A stretch of 64,000 nt of DNA from Polytrichum commune. Its lineage: Eukaryota > Streptophyta > Polytrichopsida > Polytrichales > Polytrichaceae. Shown one piece after another: positions 32,152 to 57,916 of the stretch (within the stretch, counting starts at the first letter, position 1; each line of letters starts with the position of its first letter). The translations under genes were made by a program, and so were the position numbers. The stretch spans positions 15,254,001-15,318,000 of the forward strand of contig OX485804.1 of the NCBI GenBank assembly GCA_950295325.1, in the 5' to 3' direction. The notes beneath the pieces are model-generated. The model saw only the letters and a list, made by a program, of their open reading frames with translations. It was not told the origin of the DNA and did no database searches.

Positions 32152-32161
32152 GGTTAGGCAT

Positions 32162-32214
32162 GGGGAGTGCTATCTTATGAGCGGTGAGCGATGAGCGGTA
32201 ATTTATGAGCAGTG
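32162..32214 (+). repeat. Left terminal inverted repeat of the MULE
   Basis: It contains CTATCTTATGAGCGGTGAGC and further GAGCGAT, GAGCGGT and GAGCAGT units. Its reverse complement is at 54210-54273. Confidence 0.85.
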
Positions 32215-32694
32215 AGGAAGATGAAAATTTTGGTAATAGGGCCACCAATATCCTATAACCGTGGAATTGTGGCCTTAAAAATGATGATTTTAGGGTTTAG
32301 TAATAAGAGGGTTGAGAAGGATAAACAACATGAAGTCCAAATATTTATTCATCACTAGTAGCACTAGACATGAAACTATCTTTTGCCTCGTCATCTATAT
32401 ATATTCGAGCACCTTTGCATTGCGAATTGATTTTGGAACTATAGCAAGATTCTTCATTTGGATCCGAATCTTCGATATTCAACATTGCAATTGCAACATT
32501 CACGGCATATGATGGGAGACGTGGGCTACGGCTTGGACTTCGTAGGAATTGTCTATGTGCCCAAAACGGGAGACATGTCCTCTTTCCAATCATATTCCTG
32601 AAATCAAATCGATGTAAATAATGTGAAGAAATAAAAATGAACCAATGAATTGAATGAAACGAATGAATTGAATAAAAATTTATTGTATCAAAAC

Positions 32695-35600
32695 TTACTC
32701 ACACTCAAATTCAAGCATCTCCTCATCCGAGAGGTCATCATCTTCTTTTGTGAGATCTTGTATATTCTCCTTAGATGACCCCTCTTTCAAAACATTTTCC
32801 AAAAGTGGTTTCAATATGTGCTCAAACATGTCATTATCACCCTCAAATGCAAGAAGATGTCTGCCACATGCGCGTGTTGCTAGGATAGAAACTCCAGTGG
32901 AACATGTCAAATCAACAACGCGTCCATTCGATGGTGTAAACAATTCAATAAGATCTTGAAAAAAACGCGGCGATTTTTGATATGGCCCCCTCCAAGGTCT
33001 TCCCGATTTTTGAAGAAGCACGTTTTTTTCATCCACAAAATTGAAAAGCAAGCTTTTACTTTTCAATCCAGTGCCAAAAAAATGGAGTTTGGTTGTCTCG
33101 TGGATTTTATGGTAGTAAAATCCCTTACCAAGACATGAGCCATAAATGCCGGAGTCTACAAAAAAATATAAATTGTATTAAAACTATATACAATGCAAAT
33201 AACACCAAAATAATTAAATAGAAACAATTGTGATGTGTTATACTTACGGTGTACGTTGGAGACTCCGGATCCTTGAACACTGTGTACGAATTGAGGCAAA
33301 TAAAAATCCTAAGAACTTTCATGTTGCCGTTGTGTAAGGTTGAATTCAAAACCTTCTTCGTTTGCATATCGATAGCAGAAAATACTATGAGGACGCCATC
33401 ATCAGACAAGGTGGACTTGCACAAGGACATTGTTGCAACCATCCAGTTCTTGTCATATTTATTCTAAAGAGGAATTTCAGCAGGTCTATTGGAGAGGTTG
33501 AAGTCAAGACCGTCCGGAAATTGCAGAAAAACCAAGTCAATGGCAAATGGAGTCGGACTTCCCATGACATGAAATTCGCGATTGTCTTTGAACTGAAATA
33601 CCACAACATATCACAATATAAGACATAAAATAAAATCCAAATGAAAGTAAGAATATTACAGAAAATACAAAATGAAGATTACTTACATTTTTAAGAAATG
33701 CCCGCCATTGGATCCACTCAGGAGGGCCTACTTCAACCCCTTCAGACTTGTTCTTGACAGCAGTAGATCGAGCAAAAGAGAGCGTGAGAAAGTTCTTCAG
33801 TATGAATAACTTTTTTCTCAAAACATTCGTTGGCGCACGATGAATAGCGTCATAGGTGCTGGAGTAATGTAATTCCAATACATCGCACCCGGATTTTGAA
33901 CTTTCGCCTCCAAGTGTATTCTTATCCAAATCATTGGAAAAAACAAGCAATTCTTCATGTTGTGAAATTTCCGATTGACCTTGTATTTTGGTTTCAGGAA
34001 TATATTTTCTCTTACGACGTTTTGTTTCTTTTGGTTCTGGCTCTCGAAGTTTAAGCTGCACAATTTGTGCTTGCAAAATTGCAGTATCACGAGGATCTAC
34101 ATTTTTGGCATCATTTATGTGACGGATTGTCTTCTCACTTGACGGACATGCATCCTTAGGTCAATCAAGATACCAACCACAATCCTCATAGTGTGGGAGC
34201 GACCAATCCAAACAAATCTCTGTAGTGAACATGCATGAGTCTTCCGCACCAGTGTCACGCCGATTTGGAAAAAAACGAGGTTCCCCTATAACGCATTTGT
34301 GCGGAATCAAAACATATCGGAAATACCTACACACAAAAATATTATGAGCCAAATATTGAATGAAAAGTAAAATGTAATGAAAAAATATCAAGAAATAGTA
34401 AAGAGTAAGTTGTACCTGTATAGAACACGCTTCATAGCAAGATCAATATTCGGTTGCTCATCCCAAACGTTGTGTTTTTTTAGTTTTCCGCTTTTGAATT
34501 TACGATAGAATATTGAATTGAAAGCCGCAAACTTCCAGGTTTGGATATATTCGGAGAGAGTAGGCACATCTGCAGGCAATTGAAGAGGAGATGAAATAAT
34601 ACTTTGAAGCTCTTCAATAGTTTTTTTCTCTAACTGTGCCCAATATGTAGACTTTGATAACCAATCATCAAGTGCAAAATTAGAGAGGGGTGATTTCGGG
34701 AAATGCAATGCATCTTTGTCAAATCTATTGCCATTCCAAAGCTTGAGCCATTCGACTTTGACATCTGGATCCACATTACTAACAACAACACGATGAAGTT
34801 TCTCTTGTAACATTTCAGGCACCGAAAATGAATCCCAATGGTGCTTAACTTCTTCAAGAAAAGCAGGGGTGAGGTTGATGTCAGCAATCGCTAGTTGTTT
34901 TGTAAAACTAGAAGACAACATTGCACGTTTTTTGTTGACAGCTGCGGATATTGCTTTAGAAACTCCTTCTGAAGTTCGTTCAAGAGGATGGGTTTCATTG
35001 TAAAGGTTGAGAACAATATCGCTAGCCTCGGCAAGTTCTTGCTGAAAAATCAAACAAAATACAAAATTAATAAGTACATATAGATGTGATGTAAATGAAA
35101 GATAAATAAACATTAAAAACATAGTAGGAAATGCTAGAAAATTTACACTATACATGTAATCAAGAAAAATTGGCCGCGTCAAAGAATACCAAGTTTCGAC
35201 GGACTTCTCCTCACATCGCTTATAACTTCTAGGATCCAGTTGTTTTTTAAAAGAAGTCAAAGGCATTGTGCCAATACTTTGCATCCGATACAAAGTATGC
35301 ACCAAATTGGTAGAAACGTGAGAGTTTTCTGTTGACCTGAAAAAATATTGAATTCATGAATTTAGGATGATATAATTCAAATAACAAAATACAAACCAGA
35401 ATAAATGAAAATAAAGAAGTAAGAGCATTACTTGTTGATGTCGTGCATAGCAGTCAACAAAGTTGGAATGTCATTAAGCTCGGGCGCCAAAATGATGGAA
35501 TCTACAAAGACATGACGCTCGTAATCTTCGGTATGCAAGCGGTCAATATAACTTTTCTAAGCAAAAAATTTGTGATTACCATCCCATATGAAGAACATCT

Positions 35601-36154
35601 TGTTCTTGTATGATGTAAATGAAGGATCGGCATCTAATTCAGTTTCAAACACCGCATTAGCTTGAGCCCAATTTGGGCTCCAAGATGCACGAACCTCGTC
35701 ATCCACAAATTGAAAATTTCCCTTAGAGTCGGTAGCCGATAGATAAAACACACGGTTACCATCACGATAACCATTGAAAAAGTCAGCCTCCAATTTAGTG
35801 ATGTCGCTTTTCAAAGCAGGACGCACAATAGGCATTGGAACCATGCGACATAAGGGTACACGCAAACGAGATTTCGGTCGAGCACGGATTGAGGAAATTG
35901 TTGAAGTGGAATTAACCTTTCGCTTGTCCGTAAGCTCCCATACTTTCTGTTGATAGGTTTTATTATCACCATCGTTGTCTTCATCGGAGTCAAAATCATT
36001 GATGGGTTATTGTAATTTTTTTTTTCTTATTGTTATTGTGAAGGTTTGATGAGATATCTTGATCATGATGAACTTGTTTGGATGGACGATCTTGAGTTGA
36101 GGTTTTTGTGGAATCATCATCCGTGGAAAGAGGAACTGATTTCTCCACATCCAT
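32695..36154 (-). pseudogene. ParB-like / DNA methyltransferase-like fusion gene, six main exons, inactivated
   Basis: The exons on the minus strand are 36154-35432 (its 5' boundary is uncertain), 35336-35147, 35041-34416, 34326-33687, 33592-33248 and about 33130-32695. Introns begin GT (GTAATG, GTAAAT, GTACAA, GTAAGT, GTAAGT) and end CAG or TAG, with matching phases. The first exon holds RPALKSDITKLEADFFNGY and WDGNHKFFA, which resemble the ParB/sulfiredoxin fold (GxHRxxA). The last exon holds GRPWRGPYQKSPRFFQDLIE and VVDLTCSTGV...AFEGD, which resemble motif X and motif I of beta-class (motif IV before I) DNA methyltransferases. AIDLVFLQFP sits where DPPY would be. In-frame stops occur at 36007, 35557, 34161 and 33464, with one frame change near 33065, so the copy is dead. 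The element context suggests an accessory transposon gene. Function is inferred. Confidence 0.7.
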
Positions 36155-36189: not shown

Positions 36190-36690
36190 TAGAAATCTTC
36201 TTGATGTAGTATCTTCTGAAGATATTTGATTACATAAGAGAACATGCTTAAAGGTGTAGAGAAAAAACAGTACCTGTACCAATAGCAATACCAACACCAA
36301 CAGTAGAAGAACAACACAAAACAGGATAGCACCACGTCCAGCCAAACGAACAGCAACACGAGCTCCAGCAGTAGGAACAGGAACAACAGCACCAATAGCA
36401 CCAACAACAGCAGGAACAGCAACAACACCAATACCAGCAGCAGCCCCAACACCAGCAACAGCAGCACCAACAGCAGCAACAACAACACCACCAATAGCAG
36501 CAGCAGCACAAACAACAACAATAAGAACAATAGATTAGTATCTGAACTAATACCACCTAAACCAATAGGAACAACACTAGAAGTAGTGGCAACACATGAG
36601 CAAAAACAAGAGAAGAAGAGCAGCAATAGCAGCAGCCACCACAACAACAAAGAACCACCAACAAGAGGAAGAATGACCAAAAAACAATTT
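36190..36690. repeat. Imperfect (ACA/GCA/CCA)n trinucleotide tract
   Basis: About 350 bp is made of CAACA, CAGCA and CCAACA units. Long Leu/Val/Cys-rich frames on the minus strand and Thr/Ala/Pro-rich frames on the plus strand come from this composition. I do not regard them as genes. Confidence 0.75.
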
Positions 36691-36760: not shown

Positions 36761-38026
36761 CCCTGTGCGTTAACGCACAAGGTCTATGCCCCTAACTTTG
36801 AGGCCTACCAAAGTTGCGGGTATAAACCCTGTGCGTTAACGCATAGGGTCTACGCGCCTAGCTTTGAGGCCTACCAAAGTTGCGGGCGTAGACCCTGTGC
36901 GTTAGCGCACAGGGTCTATGCACCTGACTACATATGTATGAAAGTTGCTAGCGTAGACCCTGTGCGTTAACGCACAGGGTCTATACCAAAGGTTTGAATT
37001 GTCTGGAATTGGTAGATTTGCCAAAACTTGTAAAATCTATAAATAATACTAATCTTGTCCGAAAAAAACAAAATATTGTAAATTATCTAAATCTCCGTGG
37101 CTACAACTTTCTCTAATATTTTTTTTGTGTTTGATATCGTTTTCTTTACTCATTCTTCTATCTATTTCATTATTTTGGCCACCTCATAGATTTTGGATTT
37201 CTGGGCACAAAAAAACATTTCACTATTTTTGGTCATTTTTTAGCTCCTATCACATACTACATGAATATCTCAGTAGGCATATTGCTCATTTTTTACATTC
37301 TAACCCCATTTTGAACAAATTTTTAGTTTCAACACTTTACATGACGTTCTCAATTTATACAATAGCTATTTGTTTTATTTTTAGACATTCTAAATCGCTG
37401 GTACATACCCTGTGCGTTAACGCACAGGGTATTCCATCCTAAATTTTAACCTTCTAAGTCACTGCCTAATACCCTGTGCGTTAACGCACAGGGTTTTCCT
37501 CCTAACTCTTTACTTTCTAAGTCGCTCCCTAATACCCTGTGCGTTAACGCACAGGGTTTTCCCTCCTAACTTTTAGGGTATCTAAGTCGCTCCCTAATAC
37601 CTTGTGCATTAACGCACAGGGTATTCCATCCTAAATTTTAACTTTCTAAGTCGCTCGTACATACCCTGTGCGTTAACGCACAGGGTTTTCCATCCTAACT
37701 TTTAAGGTATCTAAGTCGCTCCCTAATACCCTGTGCGTTAACGCACATGGTATTCCATCCTAGATTTTAACCTTCTAAGTCGCTTCCATATACCCTGTGC
37801 GTTAACGCACAGGGTATATGGGAGCGACTTAGAAACCCTAAACAACCCTGTGCGTTAACGCACAGGGTATTAGGTTGCGACTCACAAACCCTAAACCACC
37901 GTGTGCATTAACGCATAGGGTATTAGGGAGCAACTTACACAGCGTAAACAACCCCGTGCGTTAACGCACAAGGTATTAGGGAGCGACTTAGAAAGCGTAA
38001 ACAACCCTGTGCGTTAACGCACAGGG
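36761..38026. repeat. Array of 15 copies of a 22-bp palindrome
   Basis: The unit is CCCTGTGCGTT followed by its own reverse complement, with GTTAAC at its centre and usually one more paired A/T outside. Copies start at 36761, 36827, 36893, 36958, 37408, 37472, 37535, 37600, 37664, 37729, 37793, 37846, 37899, 37952 and 38005. Most are perfect and the others have one to four changes. Spacing is 64-66 bp in the first group of four, about 63-65 bp for the next seven and about 53 bp for the last four. Linkers are also repeated (CTAAGTCGCTCCCTAATA), and their orientation flips around the copy at 37793. Between the two main groups (36980-37407) lies AT-rich unique sequence. The array lies between the divergent genes of the MULE, so it may be a set of protein-binding sites. 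Confidence 0.9.
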
Positions 38027-38156: not shown

Positions 38157-38280
38157 AGACATCCACCTATGGATGCGAGTTGTCTAAGGAGACTGATGTT
38201 TCGGTCTGCTCCAACTTGGGTTCGAATCTAGTTGGTTGCATTGACTGGTGCTATCCCCTAATGAGCTAGTGGTTAGACAA
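38157..38280 (+). mobile_element. SINE with tRNA-Leu-like head, 5' part (split by the CACTA)
   Basis: Sequence GATGCGAGTTGTCTAAGG (A-box region) and GGGTTCGAATCT (B box, 38218-38229) resemble the split RNA polymerase III promoter of a tRNA-Leu. The tRNA-like head is followed by TTGACTGGTGCTATCCC, shared with the second copy at 53593-53776. The SINE breaks off at 38280, where the CACTA starts, and resumes at 48940. Confidence 0.8.
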
Positions 38281-41200
38281 CACTATAAGAAAATCCTGTT
38301 TTTTGTGACGTAAAAAAAAACGGGAGTGCGCGTTCACTTTGACATGGAGGTTCTTCTCTTGGACGTTACCTAAAATCCGTCATGTCAGACAGGAGAAAAA
38401 CGCGTCGTGGACATGCGAAAACATGGGGAATTTCAGCACGTTTTTATGTGACGTCACATAAAACATGGTGTTCCATAGTGTCCACGTGAAGACACGTGGA
38501 CGCCACCGGCATGCCACGCAAGCATGTTTTTTGCGGGCAGTGCCACGTCGGCACGCTTTTTTTTCCGCCCCCTCGGTGACGTGGATGGCCTCGTGGACCC
38601 TCTTGAGATGACGTGGAATGCGATTAAAAACTGATGTGGCATTCGCTGTTGCTGACGTGGACATTGCATTATGTGGTGATGTGTGCTGTTACCGACGTCC
38701 TCTGCGATACGAAAATGTCACATGAGACATTTTCCTCGACGTATGCATGTATTTTTTGGGTGTTTTCGGGGTGACTTTTAGTTTTCTTGGACATCCTTTT
38801 TGACAGTGGGATGTTATGTGTGACATCAAATGGGGCATTACAAATTATGGGGATGTCCTCTGGCCAAAACCACAGCTTGTTTGGGAGTGATGATGCCGTT
38901 TTCAAGCTTAGCCCGCCTTGACGTGGCTGATTGCCTCAAATTCTCAAACACATTACTGACATCAAGTTGTTTGGCTATTAGCAGGACCAAATATCAGATG
39001 CACGTCACTTATACCATCTACGAGAACAAACACTGACGTCAACTGTTCCACCAGACAGTCGGAACAGACACAAAGAACGCGTGGAACAAATGTACACCAA
39101 TGCTTTCCAATTCCGTAAATGCAACGTTTTCATTGATACAACATATTGCAACCAAGAGGCTGCATTTACACATCAATCGCTAGTTGCCCAAAAACTTAAA
39201 CATTGTCCATGATCGAGGCATCCATGTCTATAGTCGCGAGTCTACACCTCCACGACTAAGTGGATAATTCATGAGCACTCGAATGGAGAGCCGCGTCGTT
39301 ATTGAGAACGTCCACTCATTTCTTCTTTTGTATCTGTGCCTTCGTACTAGTCCCCACCTGCCCCATTCCACCACCATTCACAAAACCGCATGAATTACAT
39401 TAGTGGTCATCCGAACATGAAATGGACTCACACGAACGACGTGACTATATTCGAGTGCTCCACACTCCTCCTGCAATCATGCAAGCAATGTAGGCATGCA
39501 AACACTAGTTCCCTCACCTTCGCAAGATTTTGGGGAGGTTTAGGCAAACCAACCGCTTTTGGTGCACCGAGTTTGGCCATTGAGGATTTCGCTTGTGCGC
39601 TTCTACCCGCACGGCGGGGTCGGCCACCTGACTCCTCCGGTACGGGCACCTCATCCTGTAATAGCATTTCGCATTAGTATTCGGAGGTTTCAAATTATGG
39701 TCGTTCTGTTCTGCGATAATTCAAACTGTCAAGGCAAACGTCCAGCCTAATGTACATGTTGACATCCTCAATGACACCACGAAGAACATGCCAGACAAAT
39801 ACATGAAGGTATAATTTTTTAAACGGCGATGAGAGGGTTTCCAGTATGTCTAATATGGGTGGGTGTTACTTGATGTTACCTGATCCAGAGATGCAATCTT
39901 TTCAGGCACGTCCGCATTGCCGGATATCTCAGGGTGTCCTTCCTCGACGTCTTCCATAGCTTGCACTGGCACTTCCTCGTTGGTGGGTTCTACAGGGTCA
40001 TCAATTACAGGTGTCTGTGTCGTTTTTTTCGGCATTTCGAGAATGTCCTCAATTATAGACGCGATAATGGTTTCAGAGCTGGGAGGCACTGCTTCTACGT
40101 TTGTGACTGCATCAATCGCAGCATCCTCGGAGACGTCGCTCGGGACAGGAATCGCGGACACCACACGCATGTCTGCACCGCCCACCGCGCTGATAACTGG
40201 GGTGGGAGCTTATTTCTGTGCCACCATCACCAGATCCTCCGTCGTTGACGTCAATGCCGAAATATCGAGCATCTTCGCAGACGATGAAGGCTCCGTCATG
40301 CTATCAATGTTAGTCGGATGTTTCTGACTCTGATTCTGAAGAATCATTCGCATCATGTCCTCCATGCGCTTGTTTGAGGCTGCCACATTCTCTCCAAGGC
40401 GTGTGACGCTGCCCTCCAAATCCGTCACTTGAGTGCGCATCGACTCCATTTCCGAGCCATGATCGGGACGCGCTCGGCGCTTTTCCTCCTGTATGCGTTG
40501 GTACTCTTTGGCAACCTCGGCGTCAACCTCCGCATCGTACGGTGCCCTGTTCTTCAACATCGCCTGCATGGCACATTAAAGTCATTACGGATGAAAGGGG
40601 ACGTCAACAACAATGCGTTCCAACAGGTGCAGGTCCCGTGACGCCTTTGGAAGTGCCATGATTAACATCGAACATCAACTCAAACAACTAGAGTTACATT
40701 GCCGGCTCATCGGACGTCTAAGTAAACGTGTTGGATGACATCTGTTGTCGACATTGACATTGTAGGGGATAAGGGCCATCACAGATTTATAAAGATAATT
40801 GCAATATTGTCAGCCATGTCAACATAGACATAGTGGCACTCTTACCAGACAGGAGACGATCTCCCTTTCAATAGCTTTCAGTTGAGCTGTGGTCGATCCT
40901 TTCCCTTTTGAAATTGAGCGCATGTGCTGAGACTTCAAATGCGCAGCCTCGGTGGCGCACATACCTACAAGTGTTTTCCAATGCTCTGCATCCACATCGG
41001 CTAGTTTACCCGCATTGTTGTCTATGAGCTGGTTTAACCTCCACCGGGTGTTGATGAGTACCTTTGTTATAATAGGCCGCATTCACTTCTCGCACACTTT
41101 GTCACAATGCCCGCACATCTCCCAGTCTGCATGCCGGACATACACGTCAATGCCATCACATTCACTTCACAAGCGACCAACACTGGGTGCCCACACTACA

Positions 41201-42200
41201 CCCACGTTAGAAAGGGTACAAACTAGTATGTCACCACAAGAGAGAAAATTGATATCATCGACGTCCCTATGGACGTTGATAGCGATTGTCGAGCGTTTCA
41301 GTACACATGTCCACAAAAACGCACGGACGTCCTGTTCGGCATCCACTCACAGATTGTCAGCATAACAACTATGTGCTAAATACATGTCCACCCTGACGTC
41401 AGCGAGAATGTTATGCCTGCCTACATAGACATACACCCTGTTGCTCATGTCCAGAATGATGTTTGGTTGCACTTAAAATGTCAGATTCGGGTTTCACATC
41501 GCAAATTAACGCGACACATGCATGCCAAAAAATTGATGTGCAAACCTTACCTGTGTATAGGCGTTTGAATAATCGCTTCCTCTCGTGCCGTGGCTGGCCT
41601 TCCCATCTTGTCGTGGGATCCAGGTCCTTTGCATACTTCTTGATGTCGGCGCACAGGACAGCCTTCATGGCGCCAAAAGGTTGCCCTTGCGCATCCAGCT
41701 CCACACGTTTCTTCAAGGCAGTGCTCCCCCCTCCCTTACGTGTTGGTAGTGGATGTGATGTTTCAATCCCATCACTATTCTCCTGATCGCCGTCTGATTC
41801 CGTGCCCGAGTTGGTTGGGTATCCTCGGCTACAACAACCACATTCCACAATCAAGGAATTTCCAGGTGCACACATATGCGACTGCCCACTGAGCTTGAGC
41901 AGCCACATTGCAACCAATTACTGCCCCTATGAATCATACACGCAGTCAAGAGCATGGTCGAGCAACTTCAGAGTTCAGGAAGATTACCAATCACGATGTT
42001 CAAGCTGGTTGAGTGTGAGAAATGGCCATCTGAGGGTTCAGAGTACAAAAAAACTACCCGTCACACGTGAATTGGTTGAGTGAAAGAAATAACAACCTGG
42101 ATGTTGAGACTTTCTATTGTCACCCATTAATATATGGACCACAACAACGTGGTCTAATGTTTGAGTCGTCCTACCTAAACCATCTTGAAATGGGTTCTTA

Positions 42201-42367
42201 AAGACTGCAGATTTGTTTTCTTGGTTTTCCAGCTGCAATTTCAAGACTTTGGGGGCATGTTATATACCGCTGGAAAGATATTTTCAATACCTTTCCAACG
42301 GTATATAACATGCCCCCAAATTCTTAAAATTTCAGCTGTAAAACCCACAAAACAAATCTGCAGTCTT
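42201..42367. mobile_element. Tourist-like MITE nested in the CACTA
   Basis: The 167-bp element begins AAGACTGCAGATTTGTTTTC and ends with the near reverse complement. TTA flanks both sides (42198-42200 and 42368-42370), the TSD of PIF/Harbinger elements. Its arms are about 80 bp and nearly perfect, with a central GGGGGCATGTTATATACCG/GGTATATAACATGCCCCC hairpin. It lies in an intron of the TNPA-like gene. Confidence 0.85.
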
Positions 42368-42484
42368 TTAGTGACTGCAGATCAGGGTGGTCAAAAGCTC
42401 ATGGTCCCATAACCGTCGTCAAAACCCCAAGTTGCAGGTATAAAGGAAAAAATTCATGGAGCTCCAGGGAGCTGGAGCGTGGCG

Positions 42485-42515
42485 TGGTTTGTGTTTGTGT
42501 TTGTGTCTCTGTCTC

Positions 42516-42546
<31 letters not shown>
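42485..42546. repeat. Compound GTGTTT/TGTCTC/GTTGTC microsatellite
   Basis: A run of TTTGTG, TCTCTG and TCGTTG units in the TNPA-like gene. The Asn/Asp-repeat frame on the minus strand comes from it. Confidence 0.7.
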
Positions 42547-42547
<1 letters not shown>

Positions 42548-43543
42548 CTACATTGATCCAAAATTGTGCATTCTTCTGCCCAATTGAACTGGTCGAACAG
42601 GCGCGGACATCGCGACGATGAAGACTGGTTGTGCTCTACGCTAGCATCAACACCAGGAGGAGGAGAAAGACCCACTTACCTCCAGGATTGCTCCGGCACG
42701 TCCTCAGCCGCATCCTCCTCCGATGATGATACCTCGATTATGCGGCGGCGTCTTGCCGGGGGTGAGCCACGCCTCCCAGCCACATGCCGCGGGTCCTCTC
42801 TGGCCTTGGATCGCCGCTCTCCAGCTGCGCGCCTATGTTCTACCAATGTTGCTGGACACATCTCCTTGCGCTTCCCAGTGCGATCCCGTGTCCGCAGCAT
42901 CTTGGACACCCAAAAGCAACATAGCGCGTCGGAAAAGCAACACAAGGGCGTGGGAAGGCAGCGCAGCGCCGTAGGGAAAGCAACACATCGGCGTTGCAGC
43001 AGACACCACAATGGAGACTAGCGAACGTAGGTAAGAGGATCTATGCACCTCGGCATCGGAGAAGACCTATGGCCGACTGTGACCCTATGCCCAACCCACT
43101 GGAGGCCATACATGCACCTAAAACCGGGGGCTGCCGCGTGTCCGCATGCGGGCTTCCCAGTGCCAGTGGCCGAGAGCGGCGAAAAATTTCGCCGCACAGC
43201 AAAATTTGAACTTGACCGTGACCTAAATTGTGATGCGTGCATATGAGATGGAAGATTTACCTGTTTTGGAACTGGGTTGATAGCGATGCTCGATGACTCA
43301 GTGGGTGTTGTGAAATTTTCACTCCCAAAGAAGTTGAGCAAGCGTGAGCAGCGGCGACGGTGTGCACGTTGGGTTCTTTGAATTGTGTTGGGTTTTTGGG
43401 ATGGCATCATTGCATTCAACCACCAAAGTGGACAACACTGCAGTGGCCTCGGAGTCATCCGCATCCACCCTTTGCGGATGTTGTGATGTGTCTATAAAAC
43501 GGACAACCCTACCAGGCTTTCGTGTTGAACGCGACACCGCCAT

Positions 43544-44150
43544 GCTGCTAAGGGATGTTCAAGCAATGAGCGTACAAAGGTGAAGCCGCAACACTTAGGG
43601 TTTAGAGAATGTCGGCGAGCCTTCTCAGGGTCCTCTGGGGCATCCACTGCCTGGAATACCCTCTGGGACACGTGGGAAAATGTCAGTTACATTGTTTTTT
43701 TACTGGCGTCGTAGATACCAGTGTTTTCTTGGACGTCATGTAAGACACCCAATGCGACATGTGCTTAATTCGAACACTGTGCGCTCCCCATTGTGTGCGG
43801 GAATGAAAGATCCAGGTCATCGATGTGACCATTGTGGTTTCGATGTTCTGCAACAGTCAAATCCCTCACATGAGTGTGTATGGAACACACTGCCGTGTAG
43901 TGTGTGACCTTCATTTTGGTGTCCAGGAAGATGTCACAATTGACGCCGACAGATCAACAGCAATGTCCCCATGGACATTCTCAGTGACATCCACCCTGGA
44001 AGAGACACTCCGCATAGTGTCAACGAATGGTGTCCTCTGTTTATATCAATGCTCATGCGCAACACGACCACGCGGAGACCTTGCGGAAGCGCTGCACGGT
44101 GTGTAACATCGGCCCAGTGAGGTAACATCTTCCAATTCGGGACACGCAAC
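43544..44150. promoter_or_regulatory. Intergenic region between the two divergent CACTA genes
   Basis: About 600 bp separates the ATG of the TNPA-like gene (43543, minus) from that of TNP2 (44151, plus), so it should hold both promoters. It contains several ACGTCA/TGACGT-like and TGTCCA motifs also seen near the element ends. I could not identify a convincing TATA box. Confidence 0.4.
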
Positions 44151-47100
44151 ATGGGTTCGGCTGTGCGTCGTGGTGCAACCATTCGTTTGACGGACGATGG
44201 ACGCACACTTTGTCACGTGCCAATAGGGGATTTGATACTTCACACGGAGCTCCGCGTGGCGACAGAGAACAATGTGCACACATTTAGATGTCCTTGCAAA
44301 GACTGCAAGGGTGGACGCAGAAAAACCATACAAGTTATACGGCAACACCACGCGGCAGTTGGCCGTGATCCATTTCTAACCAAGTCTTTACTAGGCGGTG
44401 ACCCCGTCGATGGATACCCACCGTCTGGAATGTGGGTGGAGGACGTCTGTTGTGACAACGACGTTGTAGAAGACATCCCTTCGAACACATTACCTGAACC
44501 CGTGGACGCCGACAACGGGGCACTTCCCCCACCCCTCCTGGATGAATTCCATGAAGTTGAACGTCAGGTGCTGGAGGCACTGGGCAGAGGGGATGCACTC
44601 CACGAAGAGGCCGTAGCTGAAGGACGTTTGCATATGGAGAACGAGGAAGACGGCGACATCGAAGATGAATTGGATGATTTGTATACGGAAGCCACGACTC
44701 CAGTGTACCCGGGTTCAAAAATGAGTGTTGTGTCCGCCACGATCATCATAATGAACATGTGCTCGGTGTTCCGTGTGAGCAATACATTTACCGATGAGTT
44801 GTTCCGATTTTTGTCTGGAGACTTGTTACCAATGCCCAACAAGTTGCCCAAAACTCATTATGCGGCTCGGAAGAGCATCCGTCGACTTGGATTGACCTAC
44901 AACAATATCCATGCATGTCCCAATGGTTGTATTCTATATGACGAAGAATATGCAAATCATGATTTATGTCCCAAGTGCACGGCGCGACGATGGCTGGATG
45001 GCAGCAACAACATTCCCGCAAGAGTAATCCGTCACTTTCCCCTAATTCCTAGGTTGAAACGGATGTGGCGCTCGTCTGAGATAGCGCGTTTATTGACAGG
45101 TCACACCAAACACGTCAGCAGTGATGACATCATGCGTTCTGTGGTTGACAGCCCTGCATGGAAGCACATCAACAACGACGTCGCGTTTGGCAACTTTGGG
45201 CGTGACGATAGGAACATGAGACTGACTCTCGCTTTGGACGGAGTGAATCCTTTTAAACTAAACAACACCAACTGGTCGACGTGGCCGGTATTGATTTTGA
45301 TTTACAATTTCGAGCCATGGTTGGTGACCAAAAAGTTTTTTATCTCGTTGTGTATATTGATTTCCGGGAAGAAGTCGCCGTCCTCTTCAAACATTGATGT
45401 GTTTATACGACCGCTTTTGAAGGAGCTACAAGAGCTTTGGCATGGTGTTGAGGCTTTAGATTTCTCCCAACCACAAGGGAGTCGCACTTTCACTTTGCGT
45501 GCCATACTTATGTGGACCATTTCCGATTTTCCCGCTTTCGGCCTCATTTCTGGTCTTATTTGTAAGGGCTACAAGGGGTGCCCTTGTTGTGGACCAAACA
45601 CCGATGCGAGGATGGCAAAAACCGGAGACATGCTTCCAAATCGGAGCATTAGGGGCACCAAAATTGTTTACGGCGGCATTCGTCGTTATTTATCCCGTCA
45701 CCATCCGTATCGCCGGAATAGGAGATTCAATGGGGAGGAAGAGGAACGTCCTAGGCCAAAACCGATGTTGGGGGATGATATCATTCGATACGCAGCTTGG
45801 TGCGATTCATACCTACAGATGGGCGGGAGAGAGAACGGACCCAACGATCCTATGCATGTCACAGGCGTCAAAAGACTTAGTGCGTTGTTCGAGCTGGAAT
45901 ACTGGCAGGTGATTCCCGTATAACAATTAATGTTTGCACATCCTGTCCACAGATGTTGAAGTGGACATCGCGACGTCCGTCTCAGTCACGTAGTTTGTAA
46001 TGATGTCCACCAAGACATCTGACCTGACGCTTCAGGCCATGATGATTACCAGCTTTGCTCATACGGATAGATGAGGCATGCATGTGTCCATGAAAGTGCT
46101 GGCAATGTGTCTGAAATTGCCCATGTGTCTTGTGCAGCACCTGCTAGAGCGTCACATCCTCGATGTTATGCATTGTGAGAAGAATTTGTGCGAGAACTTG
46201 TTGAAGACATTGTTTGGAATGAATGATAGTCATGGAAGCAGGGTCGACGCGGAGGACCTGGGAATACGCGAAGAGATATGGTTGTAACCCCCGCGGCGGC
46301 CACAGGATGGGTACTATATGCCGCACGCTCCCTATGTTTTTAGGCCACATGAACGCGCGGAGTTTGTTGCAATCGTCTCCAATATTCGCACCCCCACAAA
46401 CTACGTGGGTAGCATTCACAAGCGCCTAGCGGATGGGAAATTGCAGTACATGAAAACGCACGACTACCATGTTCTCATGCAACAGGCAAGTCAAGAAGGA
46501 CACCCTCGGGGATGTCAATGTTGTAATACAATGTATCAATGTGTCATAGGAGTATAGGCACACACCGCATGATGTCTATTGAGACCTCATTCCAAACATG
46601 GTTGACGCGTCAACATCCTGGGGGACGTTATCCTCAAACTGTTCTCGCACTTCATGTTCTTCATGACGCTCCTAGATGTTCTGTCTGATGTCCAGGGAGG
46701 CGCGACACAATCGTTCTCTGACTTTCTAAATACATGTCTTCCAGATTCTTCCAGATTCTTCCAGTGGCTATACGCAACCTATTGGATGAAAGCGTGCGCG
46801 TAGCTATTATCAAACTGAGTAGAGTGTTTCAGAGACTATGCGCCAAGGAGGTGAAGAGAGGCGACAAGGAGGGCACAATGTTGGATGTGATGATGGCGAC
46901 GTGTGTCATGGAGAAGGAGTTCCCTCCCACATTTATGAATGTCATGACGCATCTTCCCATCCATTTGGTGGAGCAGTTGTACACGTGCGGTCCAGTGCAT
47001 TGTCGATGGATGTATCCCATAGAACGGTACATGAAAACGTTGAAAGATTACGTTCGAACATTTGCACATCCGGAGGGTAGCATAGCGGAAGGTTATCAAA

Positions 47101-48041
47101 TGGACGACACGCTTGGTTTTTGCACGGAGTACATGCATCAGTACAGAGGAACTACACATCGTGTATGGGACGCTGAAGAGGATGCAACCATGAACGATGA
47201 GATTCTCCGTTGCAACTCACAACAAAAGCGAAAGATGTCCGACGAATTCCGCAACTATGCGCACGCTTTTGTTTTGGACAATGCGTCGTCATTGGAGCGT
47301 TGCAGAGAGTTAGTGGAACCCATACTTACTTTACTTCAAGCCTCGATGATATATACTGTCACCCAATGCAAAATACCTGTGCCATGTCAACTGTGACATG
47401 CAGCAGTGCATGAGGATGTGTTGGACATGATGTCCCAAATAACATTCTTTCTGAGATATACGCGTCACATGTGATATTGCAGATGATGGCCATCACACTT
47501 TTGCATCACCTTTATATACATGCAAGGGCCATTTCTAACCACAATTTAATGGCACACAACCTTGTGCAGGGAGTTTATGGCAGCTAGAGTTTCGCGTTGG
47601 AAAGAGAGGGAGGCCTTTCGGAAAATGTGTCGCCGCCGGCATCCAACTTTGGCAGTGCGGTATCCGTTGGAACTACACGATCTTCCTCCCTTTGCAACAT
47701 GGTTGACGTCGCGTCTGTCACGTCAGCGTTCCTCCGGCGAAGTTGTGGACGTCGATGTTGCGCAATACGCACAACCTCCCGAGCGATATGCAATCTCACA
47801 CCGGAAAATGTATGCGTTTGGCATGCACTTCCGAGTACGAGGTGCTGAGGGTGGCCTCGTCACGCGCGATTCATGTGTGGTGGCCTCATTTACACGACAA
47901 ATACCATGGGGCTTGAGAAATGGGCGACCCATAGAGACAACCGAGGAGTATGTGGGCTACATCGACGTGTCCGCGGAGACGTCCTTTGTGTTCAAACAGA
48001 CGGATGGTCATAATTTTCTAGGCACGAAGATTTTCCAGTAG
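44151..48041 (+). pseudogene. TNP2-family transposase of the CACTA element (probably inactivated)
   Basis: Exon 1 (44151-45908) starts at ATG 44151. It encodes a Cys motif FRCPCKDC (C47, C49, C52) typical of the transposon-associated N-terminal domain, and then the TNP2 core: CPNGCILYDEEYANHDLCPKC-type zinc region, LALDGVNPF with catalytic-type D363, WPVLILIYN, IDVFIRPLLKELQELW, WTISDFPAFG and GCPCC. The junction CAG-GTGATT to exon 2 (46138-46485; LLERHILDVMHCEKN) is phase 0. Exon 2 ends at CAG-GCAAGT, a GC-type donor. Exon 3 (46755 to about 47310) carries a DUF4218-like stretch (HLPIHLVEQLYTCG, YPIERYMKTLKDYVR). Exon 4 (47570-48041) carries the C-terminal HRKMYAFGMHFRV region. A TAA at 46285 interrupts exon 2, and the exon 3-4 junction is unresolved, so the copy is probably not functional. 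The original role was the CACTA cut-and-paste transposase. Confidence 0.82.
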
Positions 48042-48049
48042 CAGTTGCT

Positions 48050-48340
48050 CGTCTATATGTGGAATGTGGCCACGAGATCCAACGTGGACACTCCCACGTT
48101 TGGCGCATGTATTTTTGGAATTGTGAGAGCAATGAAGTGCCATATTTTGCTTGTAAAAGTCTTCCCTTGATTTCCTCGTGTCTAAATGTACAAATATATA
48201 ACCTTTGAAATCCTTTGAAATCAAAATTAACATATGACAAACTAAATTATAAACAAGTGAATGAGAAAACATTCTTTTTGTAGCAAAACTTGAAATTTCA
48301 TAATTTTTCTATTTTAATCCAAAGGGCATTTTTCCACTTT
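48050..48340. other. Subterminal non-coding part of the CACTA
   Basis: AT-rich, with no gene. Confidence 0.4.
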
Positions 48341-48393
48341 AATTAATTATTCGGCTAACATGTGTTGAACCAGCTATATATGAACCTACGGTA
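48341..48393 (+). repeat. 3'-end fragment of the 29254-30203 TIR family inside the CACTA
   Basis: AATTAATTATTCGGCTAACA, ACCAGCTATATATGAACCTA and CGGTA match the right end of the element at 29254-30203, with a 4-bp TATA insertion. The left terminus is absent. Confidence 0.75.
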
Positions 48394-48939
48394 TGCAATT
48401 GTGGTCCCGCATGTCTACCTTATGGCAATTAGAGAATGACTCAACCACCCCCGTGTTTTTTGGCTCATCCGCTATAAATATTTGAACGGAATTCGGGAGA
48501 ATAACATGCATGCCAAGAACCATATTGATGCACCGTGAGAAATTTATGTGGCATTCCCTCAAATTTTTGGGAACAAGTTTGTCTTTTATAGCCAACCACA
48601 CATAGTTGAACATTCTCCAACCTTTTTTTTCCCGGGCAGCACTTTAAGTCTGCCCGCCGCAACTTTATACATGCCGTGGATAGACCTGTGGGGATGACGT
48701 GGCGTTAGCGGCCTTACAAACGGCCTGACGCAGGACGTCAGCATGTTTTAAATGACATCCACAAGAACATGGCTATCCTTCCTGACATCGCCATGTCCTG
48801 GCCCATGATTTGTCATGTTTCACGCAACGTCCAATAAAATCTGCAATTCTGTGGGCGTTTATTGCCGAACATAGTGACATCTCGGAAGACATCACTCGTT
48901 TCCCCAAAACGACCCCAAAAACGCGGGTTTTTTATAGTG

Positions 48940-49003: not shown

Positions 49004-49091
49004 AATAATTTTTTTGTTAAATTGACTACTTTGAACAAACTAAAGCATATGCCCAATAATATCGTTGATTTACGTTGAGCTGACTTACGTT

Positions 49092-49358
49092 TTTGTTTGT
49101 TGTCTTCTTTGAACTCGTCTTCATTTCCGACTCCGATATACGATCGTCTAATTGTGCACCTTCATCACCCTCTATCATATCAAAATCCAGTGCTTTCACA
49201 GTTTCTAATATCGTATTCAACATGTTTCTTTTCCCTTCCTTGTTTGCATTCATCTTTCCTACACTCAGGCCGAACCTCTTTTTCTCAGAAGTAAAATACA
49301 AAGCTTTCCTACGCCTTCTCTTCGGCCTCACGGGTGTTCTCTCTACATCCTCCACCAT
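49092..49358 (-). pseudogene. Probable first exon of the ParB-methyltransferase-like gene
   Basis: The ATG at 49358 starts an 89-codon frame with a basic patch (RPKRRRRK) and an acidic/Ser-rich tail, ending at a textbook donor (AAAAAC then GTAAGT at 49091). The exon ends in phase 0. Phase-0 acceptors are available just before the frame that continues at 36154, so an intron of about 13 kb would now span the palindrome array, the SINE and the CACTA; before those insertions it would have been about 2 kb. The basic patch could be a nuclear-localisation signal. Linkage to the downstream exons is inferred from strand, phase and position within the element. Confidence 0.45.
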
Positions 49359-49771
49359 CGTTGGTATCTATAATGTGTCCTCCATCAGTCCACTATCATT
49401 TATTCTTCCAATGTGTCTATCCCACATAAATCCGGCGTATATTACGATCATTCATGTTGCAATTGACGTCCAATGAACGAAATATTTCAACGCGTCTTTC
49501 ATTTTGTTTCTATTTTTATTATAGGGTCCAAAAGTTTCTTACACCCTAGCCTTGCTGTTTTGTATGTATCTTGCTTGTAAATATTCTCTAACTATTATTG
49601 TGATATGTTTACTTCCATATTATTAAATGCTATGGTATCACACGCTTTCATCACCATCCATTATTGTATCACGCGTTTTTAATTTCATTCACTTCATCAC
49701 ACACCTCTATATAAAAACAACATTCACCCAAAATTTTGTGATGTCTTGTTCAATTCATCTTTCCATTTTCC
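49359..49771. promoter_or_regulatory. Bidirectional promoter region of the MULE genes
   Basis: These 413 bp separate the putative ATG of the ParB-methyltransferase-like gene (49358, minus) from that of the transposase (49772, plus). A good TATA box, TATATAAAA at 49708-49716, lies about 55 bp before the transposase ATG. Confidence 0.55.
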
Positions 49772-52700
49772 ATGGCTACCATTAGAGCTCATGGATCTTT
49801 TGTTCCCTTCATTTTGCCACTTCAAGATGATGGTCATGTGAGTGTTTCAGAGGATTTACTTAGTTTGAGATTCAACCTCCAGATAGGCTCCATGTATTTA
49901 GAGCAACATATGTACTCTGCAGATGGAGAGGTATATGAAACGATTTTGGTTCAAAAAACCAGAACAGATGTTGGTTTTATGTGGATCTTAGGACCTGGTT
50001 CATATAGGGTGATAGGTCTTTCTGAGTCTCAGATGCAAGCTTCTACTGTCATATTGACAAACGAATCCGGTACATCCACAGTTCAAATTCCCTCTACCGC
50101 ACATGTTAAGATAGAACCCCTTGATGATAGTGTGTTTGTGCTATCGGATTCAGAAGATGACATTTGTGCATCTGTTGATCTTTCAAACACATCGCCGTTT
50201 CCATTTGAAGGTGTTCATTCTACTCCTTCGCAACTTCCTATACATGTATCAAAATCTCCTTGCGGTCTTATGTACAAGAGGGTGGTTCCCCTCATCTTAC
50301 CCTCTTAACGTCCTCCACTATACCCTTCACCTTCATCTACAGGGTTGACTATAGTTGATGCCTTGAAGCTGACAAAGTCAAGAAAAAGATCAAAGTCAGA
50401 TCTCGCATCCATTGATTTTGATAGTATAGATGTTCGTGATGTCAAGTACTTACCATCTTCTTTTAATGGTGATATTTTGTTTCTCTTACCCCCTGTGGCA
50501 CTTAAAGTTCCAAGTACGTATGGCCGCTCAATGGACGGCATGGACAAGATGTGCGACGGTCACCCTTGGTGCACCACCAAAACCACCAATATCCAAAATG
50601 ATTTTGGATTGTCCTTCCGGCGCTCTACTTGTGCTGGTCATCTCCAATGTCCTAATGACTACTGTGATTACATGAATCGCAATGGGGGCCTCCGGAACAA
50701 CACTGAATGGGCCGGTTCAACTCCTCTCCCATTTGTTGTGCGTAATATTCCTCCCACTAGGTCCACTGTCGAGTGTAAGGTATGTCGTTCTATACCTGTG
50801 TGCATTGCTTTATGTCATGCTCGAATCATATACATCCACTCCACATCTGTTGGAATGTCCAGGGCTTGCATTCATATTGGTGTATATGATCACCCTGTGG
50901 CCAATGGCACATGCCGTGAGTCATTGGACATGGCATATCAGTGCGTTGCAAATGAAGTATTGAAAACACCCATAGCCAAAAATTCAGCCATAGTTATGGC
51001 AGCAAGCAAACAATTCTTGGCCGATTACCTTCTCAAATCTCCTGCAAATGTCGAAGGCCATCACTTAGTTGGTTCATCCCTAGAGGTCGTCATGGACAAA
51101 TTCAGCACTCTTGCGTCTCCGAATTGTCGTAACTTTGTATCTGGATCAAAGCGTTTTTTGCGTAGTGGAATGAGAACTATGGATAGTATTATGGAACTCA
51201 AAAACCACTTTGCTTTCAAGTTCGTCCATGGTAGTCGCTTTCCAGGGCAGTCAAAGGACAAAGTGTTTGTTTTCAAGATGTCTGTAGACCTTCCAGGTAG
51301 TGGTATGGAGCTTGTGAAGAGGATGCAAGTCGGTGGGGACATGGAGAATTCATGAATTGTATTTGACCATGTCAAATGTTTGAAGGACTGGACGACCTTG
51401 GCTTGCCATGTGTACGACAGTCGATACTGTAAAGTGTTGACTATTGTGTGTTGTGATATGCAATCTGAAGATGGTGCAACACAAATTCTCTTTTGGGAAA
51501 ATTTGAATGCTGTCATGGCAAAAAATGGTGTACCAAACGTAAACTTCAAAGGGTTCATGGCTGATAGTGCTCAAGCTAATTGGAATGCGGTGAGGGCAAT
51601 TTACGGGGATGGTGATCCAAGTCTACCCATGGTTGCACGTGAGCGTACATGTCTTTTCCATTGGTCTGCAAGCTTGGATAAGGTGACCCAAAAGTATATC
51701 AAACCATCCTTGCAATTTCAATACAAACAAATATGCAAGGATTACAAAGACGCGAAAACAATGGACGACGCTGAGACTAAGTACCATGTGATTCGTTCTT
51801 GGTGGTTGTCATCTGGAGCTGCCTCGGAAGAAGGCATCCTTGGCCTTTCAGAGTGGTTAAGATTTTGGCACTTTCGTTATAGACAATGGGATGGTCATAT
51901 GCTACTTGTAAGTACATATTAAACTTCATTATTCACTATCATTCAATATCTTGCCACTGATATATAATATATCTTATGTTTTTCTTATCCTTCTATTTGT
52001 GTGTTGTTCATAGGATATGACAATAGAAGAGCGTGCGGAAATGCCAACATGCAACGTTGCAGAGACTGTACACAACAAGTGGCTCCAACAGTCCGGCAAC
52101 AAGATGACTTGTTTATATGAAGCTACGGTGGACGACATGATCCGTGCCTTCATGCAAATTGAAAATTATCAGACATGGTTGAAAGGGGGGTATGATGGTA
52201 AAGGTCCTGATTCGGCATCCTTGAAACTCAAAGCGGCTGCCAGGTGTGGAGATCCAAAAATGTTGGCCGATGCCATGAAGTCTTATCCAGGGGCAGAAGA
52301 CGTCAACACTAGAGATTGTGCATTGGAAGGGTCAGAGCTCTTTGGTTCCACCAAATGCAAACTCAACCTACCACCGGGTGCTGATTGTGACTCTCATCGA
52401 CCCGACAAAGTGAACTATTTCATTCCTCGTCCTAACACCCGAGCAACTCGTCAACGCATAGAGGAATCGTTGAGTTCTGCAATTCATGGTGTGGCTCATA
52501 CTACATCCGTGTTAGAGACAGATTGTCTTGTTTCCAAGTGGCACATTGCAAGATTACCACCCAACTCAGCCAAACGATGTTGGGCACTGCAGGCCATCAC
52601 AGGGATTATGTGCAATGCCAAAGTCGGGACTGGGAAACATGGCACACCTGCTCCAACATACAAAAGGCTCAGGAAGGAATTTCGCTCTCCCAACAATGTG

Positions 52701-53381
52701 GAGTATGAATTTTGATTTTGCCCTGACGACATCAAACGTTGTGTGAGTGGCAGTAAGAAGAAATATGTGTTGGACTGGCCTATAGTACCCAACACGTGGC
52801 CGGTGAAGATAGGTACCAATCTATCGCAAGAGGAGGTTTTGGCACTTGAAGATGTTGGGTTTCAACTAGAGCAGAGGGAGGCATTGTCCCCTCATCGTTG
52901 GCTTTCAACAATCGCAACTCTCCCCATCCCTCATTCGCATTTTTCTATGCCACCAAACCCGGACGCCCACCCTACATTCAGGTTTGGGAAGACAGTGCGT
53001 TGTAATCCAACAGCACCGCTAGCGGATCACAAAAACAAATGGGAGAGCGCCGGACTCATGGAGGGTTACTATGTGGTTGGGGTCACTGCCATTCCATATC
53101 CGGGCTTTGGAGTGATAATCAACATTGTCTCCAAGCAGGATATCACCTATCATGTCACAATTGGCGACATCCCGCATTGCACATGCCCGGATTTCACGAA
53201 AATGTCCTCTCATACATTGGGAAAGAAAGGAAAATGGGTGTATTATAAACATCTTTATTATGTGTTTAGATTTTTGTGCATGGTGGATTACGAGAGTGAC
53301 AAGTTCATTCATGCACCTACATATACCTATAACGAGGTCATGCGACTACTTGAACTTGCTGGTATTGTAGAGTGTGAATAG
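49772..53381 (+). pseudogene. Mutator-like element transposase, inactivated
   Basis: Exon 1 starts at ATG 49772 (MATIRAHGSF). A short intron probably ends at 50341 (CATCTACAG). Exon 2 reaches 51907 (donor GTAAGT) and exon 3 runs from 52014 (acceptor TTCATAG) to the TAG at 53379-53381. The protein shows an N-terminal Cys/His-rich zinc region (HPWCTTKTTNIQND, HLQCPNDYCDY, CKVC...C), then the MULE DDE core (VYDSRY, QSEDGATQ, FKGFMADSAQANWNAV, TCLFHW) and a C-terminal SWIM-type finger (HCTCPDF...YYKHLYYVF). Two in-frame TGA codons (51353 and 52713) interrupt it where related proteins, as I recall them, have Trp. The third SWIM ligand is Tyr (53244) instead of Cys. It is divergent from the ParB-methyltransferase-like gene in the same element. 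Confidence 0.8.
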
Positions 53382-53592: not shown

Positions 53593-53776
53593 GAGAAGAT
53601 TCTACGCACATCCGCGTAGTAACGTCTTCTTGGTATCCGCCTATAGATTATTCCTGCTTTATCACTAGCTCAATTTGGGATAGCACCAGTCAATGTAACC
53701 AACCGGATTCGAACCCGGGTTGATACAGACCTAATACCAGTCTCTTACACAACTCGCATCCACAGGCGGATGTCTC
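53593..53776 (-). mobile_element. SINE with tRNA-Leu-like head, intact copy
   Basis: On the minus strand it reads GAGACATCCGCC, GGATGCGAGTTGTGTAAG (A-box region), GGGTTCGAATCC (B box, 53704-53715), TTGACTGGTGCTATCCC and GGATGTGCGTAGAATCTTCTC. It is the uninterrupted relative of the SINE split by the CACTA. It lies inside the MULE, between two copies of a duplicated 3' transposase segment. Confidence 0.82.
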
Positions 53777-54209: not shown

Positions 54210-54273
54210 ATGTTACTGCTCATTGCTCATGTGTTACTGCTCACCGCTCACCGCTCATAAGATAGCTTCCCTC
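54210..54273 (-). repeat. Right terminal inverted repeat of the MULE
   Basis: Read on the minus strand it gives CTATCTTATGAGCGGTGAGC followed by repeated GAGCGGT/GAGCAGTAACA units, matching the left end. Confidence 0.85.
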
Positions 54274-54283
54274 GGTTAGGCAT

Positions 54284-56289: not shown

Positions 56290-57916
56290 AACCTGATGGT
56301 GCGAGTCTTGAAGGAGTTTGAGGGCCACTTCACACCCGAGACTGACAGCCTGTGACCATTACACTTCAAGCACTCTCATTGGTGGAAAAGTCGGACGAGT
56401 GTCGTCAACTGGATAAGATCATTAGCATGCCCATTGTCCAACCCGGTGGTCAATCCACAACAACAAGCTAGAGACAACATGAGGGGAGCTAGGCCACAAG
56501 GTGGACCACCGAATGAGCTTAGACCACCGAACTTGTATTATGACCATGGGAGTGCAAGGCAAACTTTTCATCCTCCGGCGGGATTGCAAACGACGAATGG
56601 ATACATTCCAATTCAGAGTAAGCAAGGGGTTTCACAGAATTTCAACAATGGGAGGCAAGTTCCTCCCACGGATCCGGGTCCGTCCAATTCTCAGGATGTC
56701 AGGTTCACGGAGGGTGTAATGAAGTCACATCATGATGAGTCTCTTCCTTTTCAAATGGGTGTTGGCGAGGAACAAAGTCAATGGCCTTCACACACCAATG
56801 TTATCACCTATGAGTTAAGGAGTTTAGATGATGAGGTCATTCATGAGGCACCGGCATTGGCGGTTACCACTAGGGCTATAAGAGGAAGTCTTCCACATGA
56901 GAAAGAAGTAGAGGCACCAGAGGAGGATTCTTCGGGAGAGGCTCCTCAATTGTCAAACTTAGAGAAGGTAGCTAGGACAACCTGAAGAGCCACTGAGGCA
57001 CTAGAGAGAAAGAATGTGATTCTCCAAGATAGGGAGAGGCCTAATGTCATTCATGATTTAGGGGGTAGTGAGATGGGAGAATGAGAAGGACCGGGAATTC
57101 CCTTGGATGAATTTGATGGTGTTGGCAGTGCAAGGGTGAAGAAACCGAATGACTATGATTTATAGGCCGATCTTAGCTCACTTAAGGCCGACATCACCTT
57201 CGGACAGTTGTTGGAAATATCACCCATGGCTCGTAAAACTCTCAAGGAAGGAATGCAGGTGAATAAAAGGACTAGGAAGGTGAAGACTAGGGTGGCCGCT
57301 AGAATTCAATTGCAAGGAGGAGGGCGTGATGTCGAGGCAATTGAAATTGAGGTTATGGTGGTGGACAAAGTGGTTCCGAATGTGTTAGTGGATGGAGGTA
57401 GTGGTCTAAAACATCTTGCCGGAACACACCATAAAGAGGTTGGGTCTTAGTCTTACGGGTCCATCACCTTTCATCATCAACATGGCGAATCAAACTCCGG
57501 CTGTGCCCTTGGGATTGATTAAGGATTGTAGGATTAGCACTGGGGGGGAAGAGTATGTAGTCACTTTTCATGTCATCAAGATGCACTCCAACAAAGATAC
57601 ATTTCCCATCTTGTTAGGTAGGCCATGGTTGAGAATGTCGGAGGCTATAGTGGAGTGGAGAGGAGCCAAGCCTTCCATCACTTATGGTCCGAAGGATAAT
57701 AGGGTCAAGGTTTCCATAGGGTCATTAGATGGTTGGGTGATAAATGAAATTGCCTCATCCTCGGAGGATGAACTTGATGACAAAGAAGACGACAAGGATG
57801 GTGAGGAATTGGTAGGAGTGGTCCACTCGGATGGCCATGGAAAAATCATAGATTCAGGATCAGGTGGCTTAGGTCCTAGTTTCTATCATCATGGGGACGA
57901 TGGGAAGTATGCATAG
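56290..57916 (+). pseudogene. Ty3/gypsy-like gag-protease region, decayed
   Basis: Open segments at 56434-56985, 57208-57450 and 57416-57916 belong to one broken polyprotein. The clearest part is the retropepsin-like domain: VPNVLVDGGSGL (active-site D-G-G in place of D-T/S-G) is followed, after a frameshift at about 57405-57416, by EHTIKRLGL, FIINMANQT and ILLGRPWLRM (the ILGRPWL signature). Upstream are low-complexity Pro/Gln/Gly-rich gag-like sequence and in-frame stops at about 56983, 57082 and 57163. Reverse transcriptase, RNase H and integrase are not found downstream, so it is truncated. No LTR pair is visible around it. Confidence 0.75.

Follow-up and report, generated by a model that had tools for sequence, protein, structure and literature searches.

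What purpose is served by palindromes repeated between two divergent genes of a transposon, and which protein, if any, recognises them? This question is raised by a 64,000-nucleotide stretch of the Polytrichum commune genome (contig OX485804.1, positions 15,254,001 to 15,318,000; hereafter the window), in which an array of a 22-base-pair (bp) palindrome, CCCTGTGCGTTAACGCACAGGG, lies within a degraded Mutator-like element (MULE) of approximately 32162-54273 that is split by a CACTA transposon. The array is situated between the two divergent genes of the element, one for a MULE-type transposase and the other for a protein with a GNHR motif, designated ParB-like, and a methyltransferase-like C-terminus (the GNHR gene). 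Based on sequence comparisons across the genome, the palindromes probably constitute an array of dyad-symmetric sites recognised by a dimeric DNA-binding protein that the element itself encodes, with the ParB-like protein slightly favoured as the binder. This interpretation follows from the position of the sites between divergent genes and 5′ of the GNHR gene, the retention of half-sites while linkers change, and the presence of other dyads in distant copies.

A search of the whole window with up to three mismatches identified 15 copies of CCCTGTGCGTTAACGCACAGGG within 36761-38026 and none outside, with no matches in 100 dinucleotide-shuffled sequences, confirming the fifteen palindromes between divergent genes reported in an initial annotation. 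The regular spacing of 53-66 bp given there holds inside three sub-arrays (63-66 or 53 bp; Table 1), and is interrupted by a 450-bp step from 36958 to 37408 that separates sub-array A from B. The three sub-arrays have three linker types and one shared core, units of A and B agreeing at 93% of core positions but at 51% of linker positions, and linker direction turns over at 37793 as initially described. In some copies the symmetry continues into the flanks, reaching 30 bp in sub-array A (at 36954) and 36 bp at 37786-37821. The copies had been called mostly perfect and all were said to contain GTTAAC; the actual figures are eight perfect copies, with 11 of 330 bases changed (3.3%), and an unbroken GTTAAC in 12 of the 15 copies. 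Since core divergence of this size is within what post-insertion decay could leave, the perfection of the cores by itself proves nothing.

The genome from which the window derives (407.8 Mb in 64 contigs) was searched for both the palindrome and the genes; each protein search scored 150 of 1,212 to 1,837 candidates, and the resulting gene lists are lower bounds. Exact copies of CCCTGTGCGTTAACGCACAGGG number 444 against none for the reversed control, and scans of viral and prokaryote contigs gave no match to it. The 50 listed sites are all on one contig (C1), and 45 of them lie 0-6 kb upstream of a GNHR exon that was found independently by protein search, in upstream windows making up 0.18% of C1; this test drew on 60 of the 150 listed gene places. 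The five exceptional sites (C1:461703-462638) are 17-18 kb upstream of the GNHR exon at C1:479565, and the intervening DNA contains a different dyad array (C1:468608-471946), perhaps a nested element. When the gene was taken as the starting point, CCCTGTGCGTTAACGCACAGGG with at most one mismatch was present within 1.5 kb on the 5′ side at 30 of the 30 best loci, the window included, and on the 3′ side at none. As initially proposed, the palindrome is associated with the element and with its ParB-like gene, and a widespread satellite unrelated to the element was rejected on these counts. With regard to intact copies, the palindrome is present at all of the loci, 19 of the 30, whose searched exon is free of stop codons, a statement that applies to that exon, no whole gene having been shown to be intact. 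A motif search for GNHRxxAW found 549 places in the genome versus two in controls. The gene layout was scored for 128 GNHR exon places and 18 distant ones, the few others listed being left out; for 93 of the 128, a divergent transposase lies no more than 25 kb away (median 5.2 kb); for one the transposase is in another orientation, and for 34 none is listed.

Base conservation within the sites was assessed by requiring an exact left half of CCCTGTGCGTTAACGCACAGGG and scoring what follows (189 reads from 31 loci on both strands, so that perfect sites count twice). Each base of the right half-site is 93-98% conserved; the next three bases outside it are conserved at 95, 74 and 95%, and bases 4-11 at 40-59%. 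The TTAA centre of CCCTGTGCGTTAACGCACAGGG is as fixed as its arms. In GTTTGGGTCGnnCGACCCAAAC, a second dyad present in sister copies of the element, conservation is 44% and 53% at the two central positions and 89-98% in the right arm, and centres are free in several other dyad types. When the single proximal site was aligned across 19 copies, its minor fraction was 0.005 versus 0.058. A profile of 146 sites, picked by their likeness to the palindrome, is biased for that reason. Half-sites that are base-specific, centres that are free in several subfamilies, multiplication in tandem and a sequence peculiar to each subfamily form the pattern expected if a dimeric protein has numerous sites on the element that encodes it. 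The perfect 11-bp arms of the eight unchanged window copies could also act as DNA cruciforms or RNA hairpins, but the arm letters themselves are conserved within arrays, beyond what pairing would require; a structural role was rejected on this basis and is extremely improbable.

Other subfamilies of the element carry other dyads. Most GNHR gene copies read at 42-43% identity have different palindromes in the same 5′ region, namely GTGTCTCGGnnCCGAGACAC, GTGTTTCGGGCCCGAAACAC, AGGCCTCGGATCCGAGGCCT, GGTTTCGGnnCCGAAACC and GGGTTCGGnnCCGAACCC, which have a common core TCGGnnCCGA with variable outer bases, and a third clade has GGCATCTCGGATCCGAGATGCC. Genome-wide there are 997 copies of GTGTCTCGGnnCCGAGACAC (control 0), and for 36 of 50 listed sites an exon of that clade is listed no more than 6 kb away, 21 sites being on its 5′ and 15 on its 3′ side. 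Across 66 distinct loci (four duplicates having been left out), which are best matches and family copies and hence neither random nor independent, the 5′ stretch of 53 contains two or more exact dyads of a single kind (50 without counting the widespread GTTTGGGTCG dyad), compared with 0 of 350 simulated loci under a similar criterion. The remaining 13 comprise three loci with at least two one-mismatch dyads, three with one and seven with none. Further dyads, TGAAGCCGGGGCTTCA and GTTTCGGnnCCGAAAC, were observed 3′ of the first exon, probably in introns, in copies L061, L064-L070 and L073-L076 of the 42-43% clade.

Two alternatives are constrained by these results. A neutral satellite produced by tandem duplication, with no function, draws on the fact that slippage grows tandem arrays and on a core divergence that post-insertion decay could account for; against it, linkers have diverged and cores have not, one core spans three linker types, and repeated dyads recur at most loci, which makes it highly improbable. 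Secondly, the palindromes may be bound by a protein of the host (transcription factor, insulator or replication protein), given that dyads can serve any dimer and that GTTTGGGTCG dyads occur in many other places. We regard this as quite unlikely, however, because the listed CCCTGTGCGTTAACGCACAGGG sites are concentrated at the GNHR gene and the sequence differs from one subfamily to the next, as would not be expected if a host protein of fixed specificity were involved.

A number of observations weigh against the interpretation of the palindromes as sites for the element's own ParB-like protein. Some CCCTGTGCGTTAACGCACAGGG linker bases further out are also conserved (82% and 95%), indicating that linkers are not free of constraint or that descent is recent and shared, and 42 of 675 windows are as conserved as the proximal site aligned in 19 copies. 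To these can be added the seven loci lacking a dyad in the 5′ stretch, the 3′ position of 15 GTGTCTCGGnnCCGAGACAC sites, and the 14 listed GTGTCTCGGnnCCGAGACAC sites with no listed partner exon within 6 kb, of which 13 form the cluster C1:468608-471946 and one is solitary. Since each dyad is inherited with its element, some agreement between the dyads and the gene tree is to be expected. Dyad arrays are, moreover, not exclusive to the GNHR gene: GTTTGGGTCGnnCGACCCAAAC has 9,231 copies in arrays of various periods (for example C1:616088-626110 and C1:1180627-1190831), and of 100 listed sites only 17 have a listed GNHR place no more than 6 kb away, or 22 if the distance is raised to 20 kb, leaving 83 more than 6 kb from any. 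The GTTTGGGTCGnnCGACCCAAAC array may belong to the protein of another transposon, and would then represent another dyad-array system in the genome.

The dyad TTGTGCGnnnnCGCACAA bears most directly on which of the two proteins is involved. It occurs 54 times in the genome (control 0) and is carried by a transposase lineage 82-90% identical to that of the window, with 34 of 50 listed sites located 2.5-3.8 kb upstream of nine transposases of this lineage; no ParB-like exon is listed close to the dyads for any of these nine, and for eight of them none is listed up to 25 kb away. The remaining 16 sites comprise four at listed ParB-like genes and 12 with neither gene nearby. This co-occurrence favoured the transposase as the binder, for transposition or autoregulation, until the GNHRxxAW search revealed a divergent GNHR place at C1:9413354 for the transposase at C1:9420135 (one of two such on C1), and another at C1:33360829 for a dyad cluster without a listed transposase (C1:33356729-33356953); the transposase at C1:9652560 has no GNHR place among those listed. 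MULE transposases are known to bind element ends, whereas the palindromes are internal. Four further transposase loci, for which no partner is listed, were read; of these, L082 has an array of a TTGTGCG dyad, L079-L081 have no repeated dyad in 2.4 kb, and the L081 transposase has a GNHR place 5.9 kb away. Binding by the transposase is accordingly unlikely, and the ParB-like gene is the better candidate, though not proven.

The names given to the GNHR gene are themselves weak. Its characteristic exon is highly conserved, GNHR and other residues being invariant in 36 sequences, and a protein-database search with the exon alignment returned 544 relatives at E 1 or better, of which none of the 120 listed has a Pfam domain; searching with the whole broken window gene gave no relatives at E 0.001. 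The ParB-like designation of the initial annotation is consistent with the GNHRxxA box and with matches of 14 of the 36 members to a ParB-like PHROG (best E 0.088). It is not borne out by Pfam or the PDB, neither of which contains a ParB match for the exon, or by an hhalign comparison with a shallow profile of Bacillus Spo0J, which was negative; that no profile confirms the ParB-like fold is a further point against the proposed binder. The methyltransferase label derives from one match below the cut-off (N6_N4_Mtase, E 0.084) and from motif order by eye. Instead of the catalytic motif [DNS]PP[YFW], the window copy and L045 have QFPDG and L048 has DLPEG, and no Pfam methylase was found in the L045 and L048 pieces scanned. 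The palindromes had initially been suggested as methylation sites, that is, as a substrate modified by the methyltransferase-like domain of the gene, and self-binding with modification has been proposed for a similar Ectocarpus protein in the sections of that report consulted (PMC12477816). Given the non-canonical motif in all three copies read, and centres free in several subfamily dyads and thus no fixed central target base, a methylation target was rejected and we consider this role very unlikely. Nothing in the analysis supports the centromere role to which the array had also been likened.

Assuming that the dyads are bound by a dimer of an element-encoded protein, most likely the divergently transcribed GNHR/ParB-like protein, the many sites would load that protein onto its own element, where it could maintain activity of the shared promoter region or protect it from silencing, in the way that VANC acts on VANDAL elements. 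Protein and target dyads would then co-evolve, subfamily by subfamily. By analogy with VANC, anti-silencing is a possible purpose of the binding, which we put forward tentatively. More speculative still is the broader suggestion of a very large family of eukaryotic transposons in which a ParB-like protein acts on the family's own, diversifying arrays of palindromes, a partition-type spreading complex being reused for self-recognition and anti-silencing; this is prompted by the abundance of GNHRxxAW signatures relative to controls in a genome of 408 Mb and by subfamilies with different sites. If correct, it would amount to another answer, apparently unrelated, to the problem solved by VANC, in which a transposon marks only its own copies as active while the host silences the rest, and the divergent palindrome and protein sets within one genome could allow specificity to be read out by swaps.

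MULEs are characterised by terminal inverted repeats and a target duplication of approximately 9-11 bp, and both are present in the window (Table 1). As the inverted repeats lie a few bases inside 10-bp GGTTAGGCAT direct repeats, 32162-54273 can be read as one insertion. Without the CACTA insert, approximately 3 kb would separate the start regions of the two divergent genes, and the array would lie in this interval. This copy of the element is dead. The GNHR gene model has seven exons placed by eye from splice consensus and a putative start codon near 36154; an AAC/CAG-rich microsatellite (36376-36530) between the gene and the array is perhaps part of a 5′ leader. The transposase has a SWIM zinc finger match below threshold (E 0.094) and DDE-like motifs by eye, no Pfam MULE domain in the pieces scanned, and at least 150 relatives among the matches listed in the genome protein search. 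Just upstream of it, on the opposite strand, is a small open frame with SESEMKTSS (window 49029-49367, minus strand; L081 599-910, plus strand), which, being seen in two lineages, is a possible third gene or exon. A 72-bp inverted pair (38200-38271 and 53663-53734, 83% alike) with tRNA-like boxes by eye possibly represents SINE copies. Gag- and protease-like open frames of the LTR retrotransposon type were noted by eye at 56356-57913 (plus strand), and ACACTAAATATNATATTTAGTGT, a 23-bp inverted repeat with a one-base centre, has three copies outside the element (27918, 28216 and 55690).

Table 1 Coordinates of the MULE, its genes, the nested element and the palindrome sub-arrays in the window
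Feature	Position	Strand	Remarks
Left flanking direct repeat GGTTAGGCAT	32152-32161		Target-site duplication, 10 bp; read from flanks
Left terminal inverted repeat, 48 bp	32169-32216	+	42/48 (88%) identical to the right one
GNHR/ParB-like and methyltransferase-like gene	32345-36154	-	Broken; in-frame stops, probable frame change near 36012
Palindrome sub-array A	36761-36979		4 palindromes, spacing 65-66 bp
Palindrome sub-array B	37408-37814		7 palindromes, spacing 63-65 bp
Palindrome sub-array C	37793-38026		5 palindromes (first common with B), spacing 53 bp, reversed linkers
Nested CACTA element	38281-48939	+	Right end matches the terminal motif only with 2 mismatches
CACTA tnp2 transposase gene	44151-45923		
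CACTA DUF4218 gene	46734-47396		
MULE-type transposase gene	49742-53378	+	Broken; in-frame stops and frame change
Right terminal inverted repeat, 48 bp	54219-54266	-	Partner of 32169-32216
Right flanking direct repeat GGTTAGGCAT	54274-54283		Read from flanks

A literature search, mostly without subscription papers, found in the text available no description of a gene of this type that is accompanied by palindrome arrays or is part of a MULE. The closest known system is that of the Arabidopsis VANDAL elements, which are also MULEs. According to the portions of the two reports consulted, VANC, whose gene is distinct from that of the transposase, binds short motifs that are tandemly repeated in the noncoding DNA of these elements and removes silencing, with motifs that differ between related families (PMC5735166, PMC10398659). 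Tandemly repeated noncoding motifs that change between subfamilies are likewise found here, in a putative target role. The Polytrichum motifs differ, however, in being palindromes of approximately 18-22 bp, whereas the VANC motifs quoted in those portions have 8-9 bases, and the string "palindrom" is absent from the main texts of both reports (PMC5735166, PMC10398659). The candidate protein is also different, being GNHR/ParB-like and methyltransferase-like; Pfam gave no VANC-relevant match in the open reading frames scanned, and comparison with VANC sequences was not made.

Palindromic sites are a feature shared with bacterial ParB-parS and the phage ParB-methyltransferase proteins, and the GTTTC half-site of the 42-43% clade resembles the parS half-site. 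Unlike ParB-parS, there is no segregation context, the half-site spacing differs, there is no profile match to Spo0J, and no ParA-type gene was recognised in the element, where no search aimed at ParA was made. ParB-methyltransferase fusions are described as frequent in phages in the part of the report consulted (PMC12704722). The same pair of domains has been reported in a transposon, the accessory gene of Sola1-1_Ec32 from Ectocarpus having a ParB-like and an N4C/N6A methyltransferase domain and a product proposed to bind its own element, as far as the consulted sections describe it (PMC12477816). That element is from another transposon superfamily and host, the likeness is by description only, and those sections describe no target sites (PMC12477816); the dyad arrays of Polytrichum would give such algal transposon genes a concrete idea of their possible targets.
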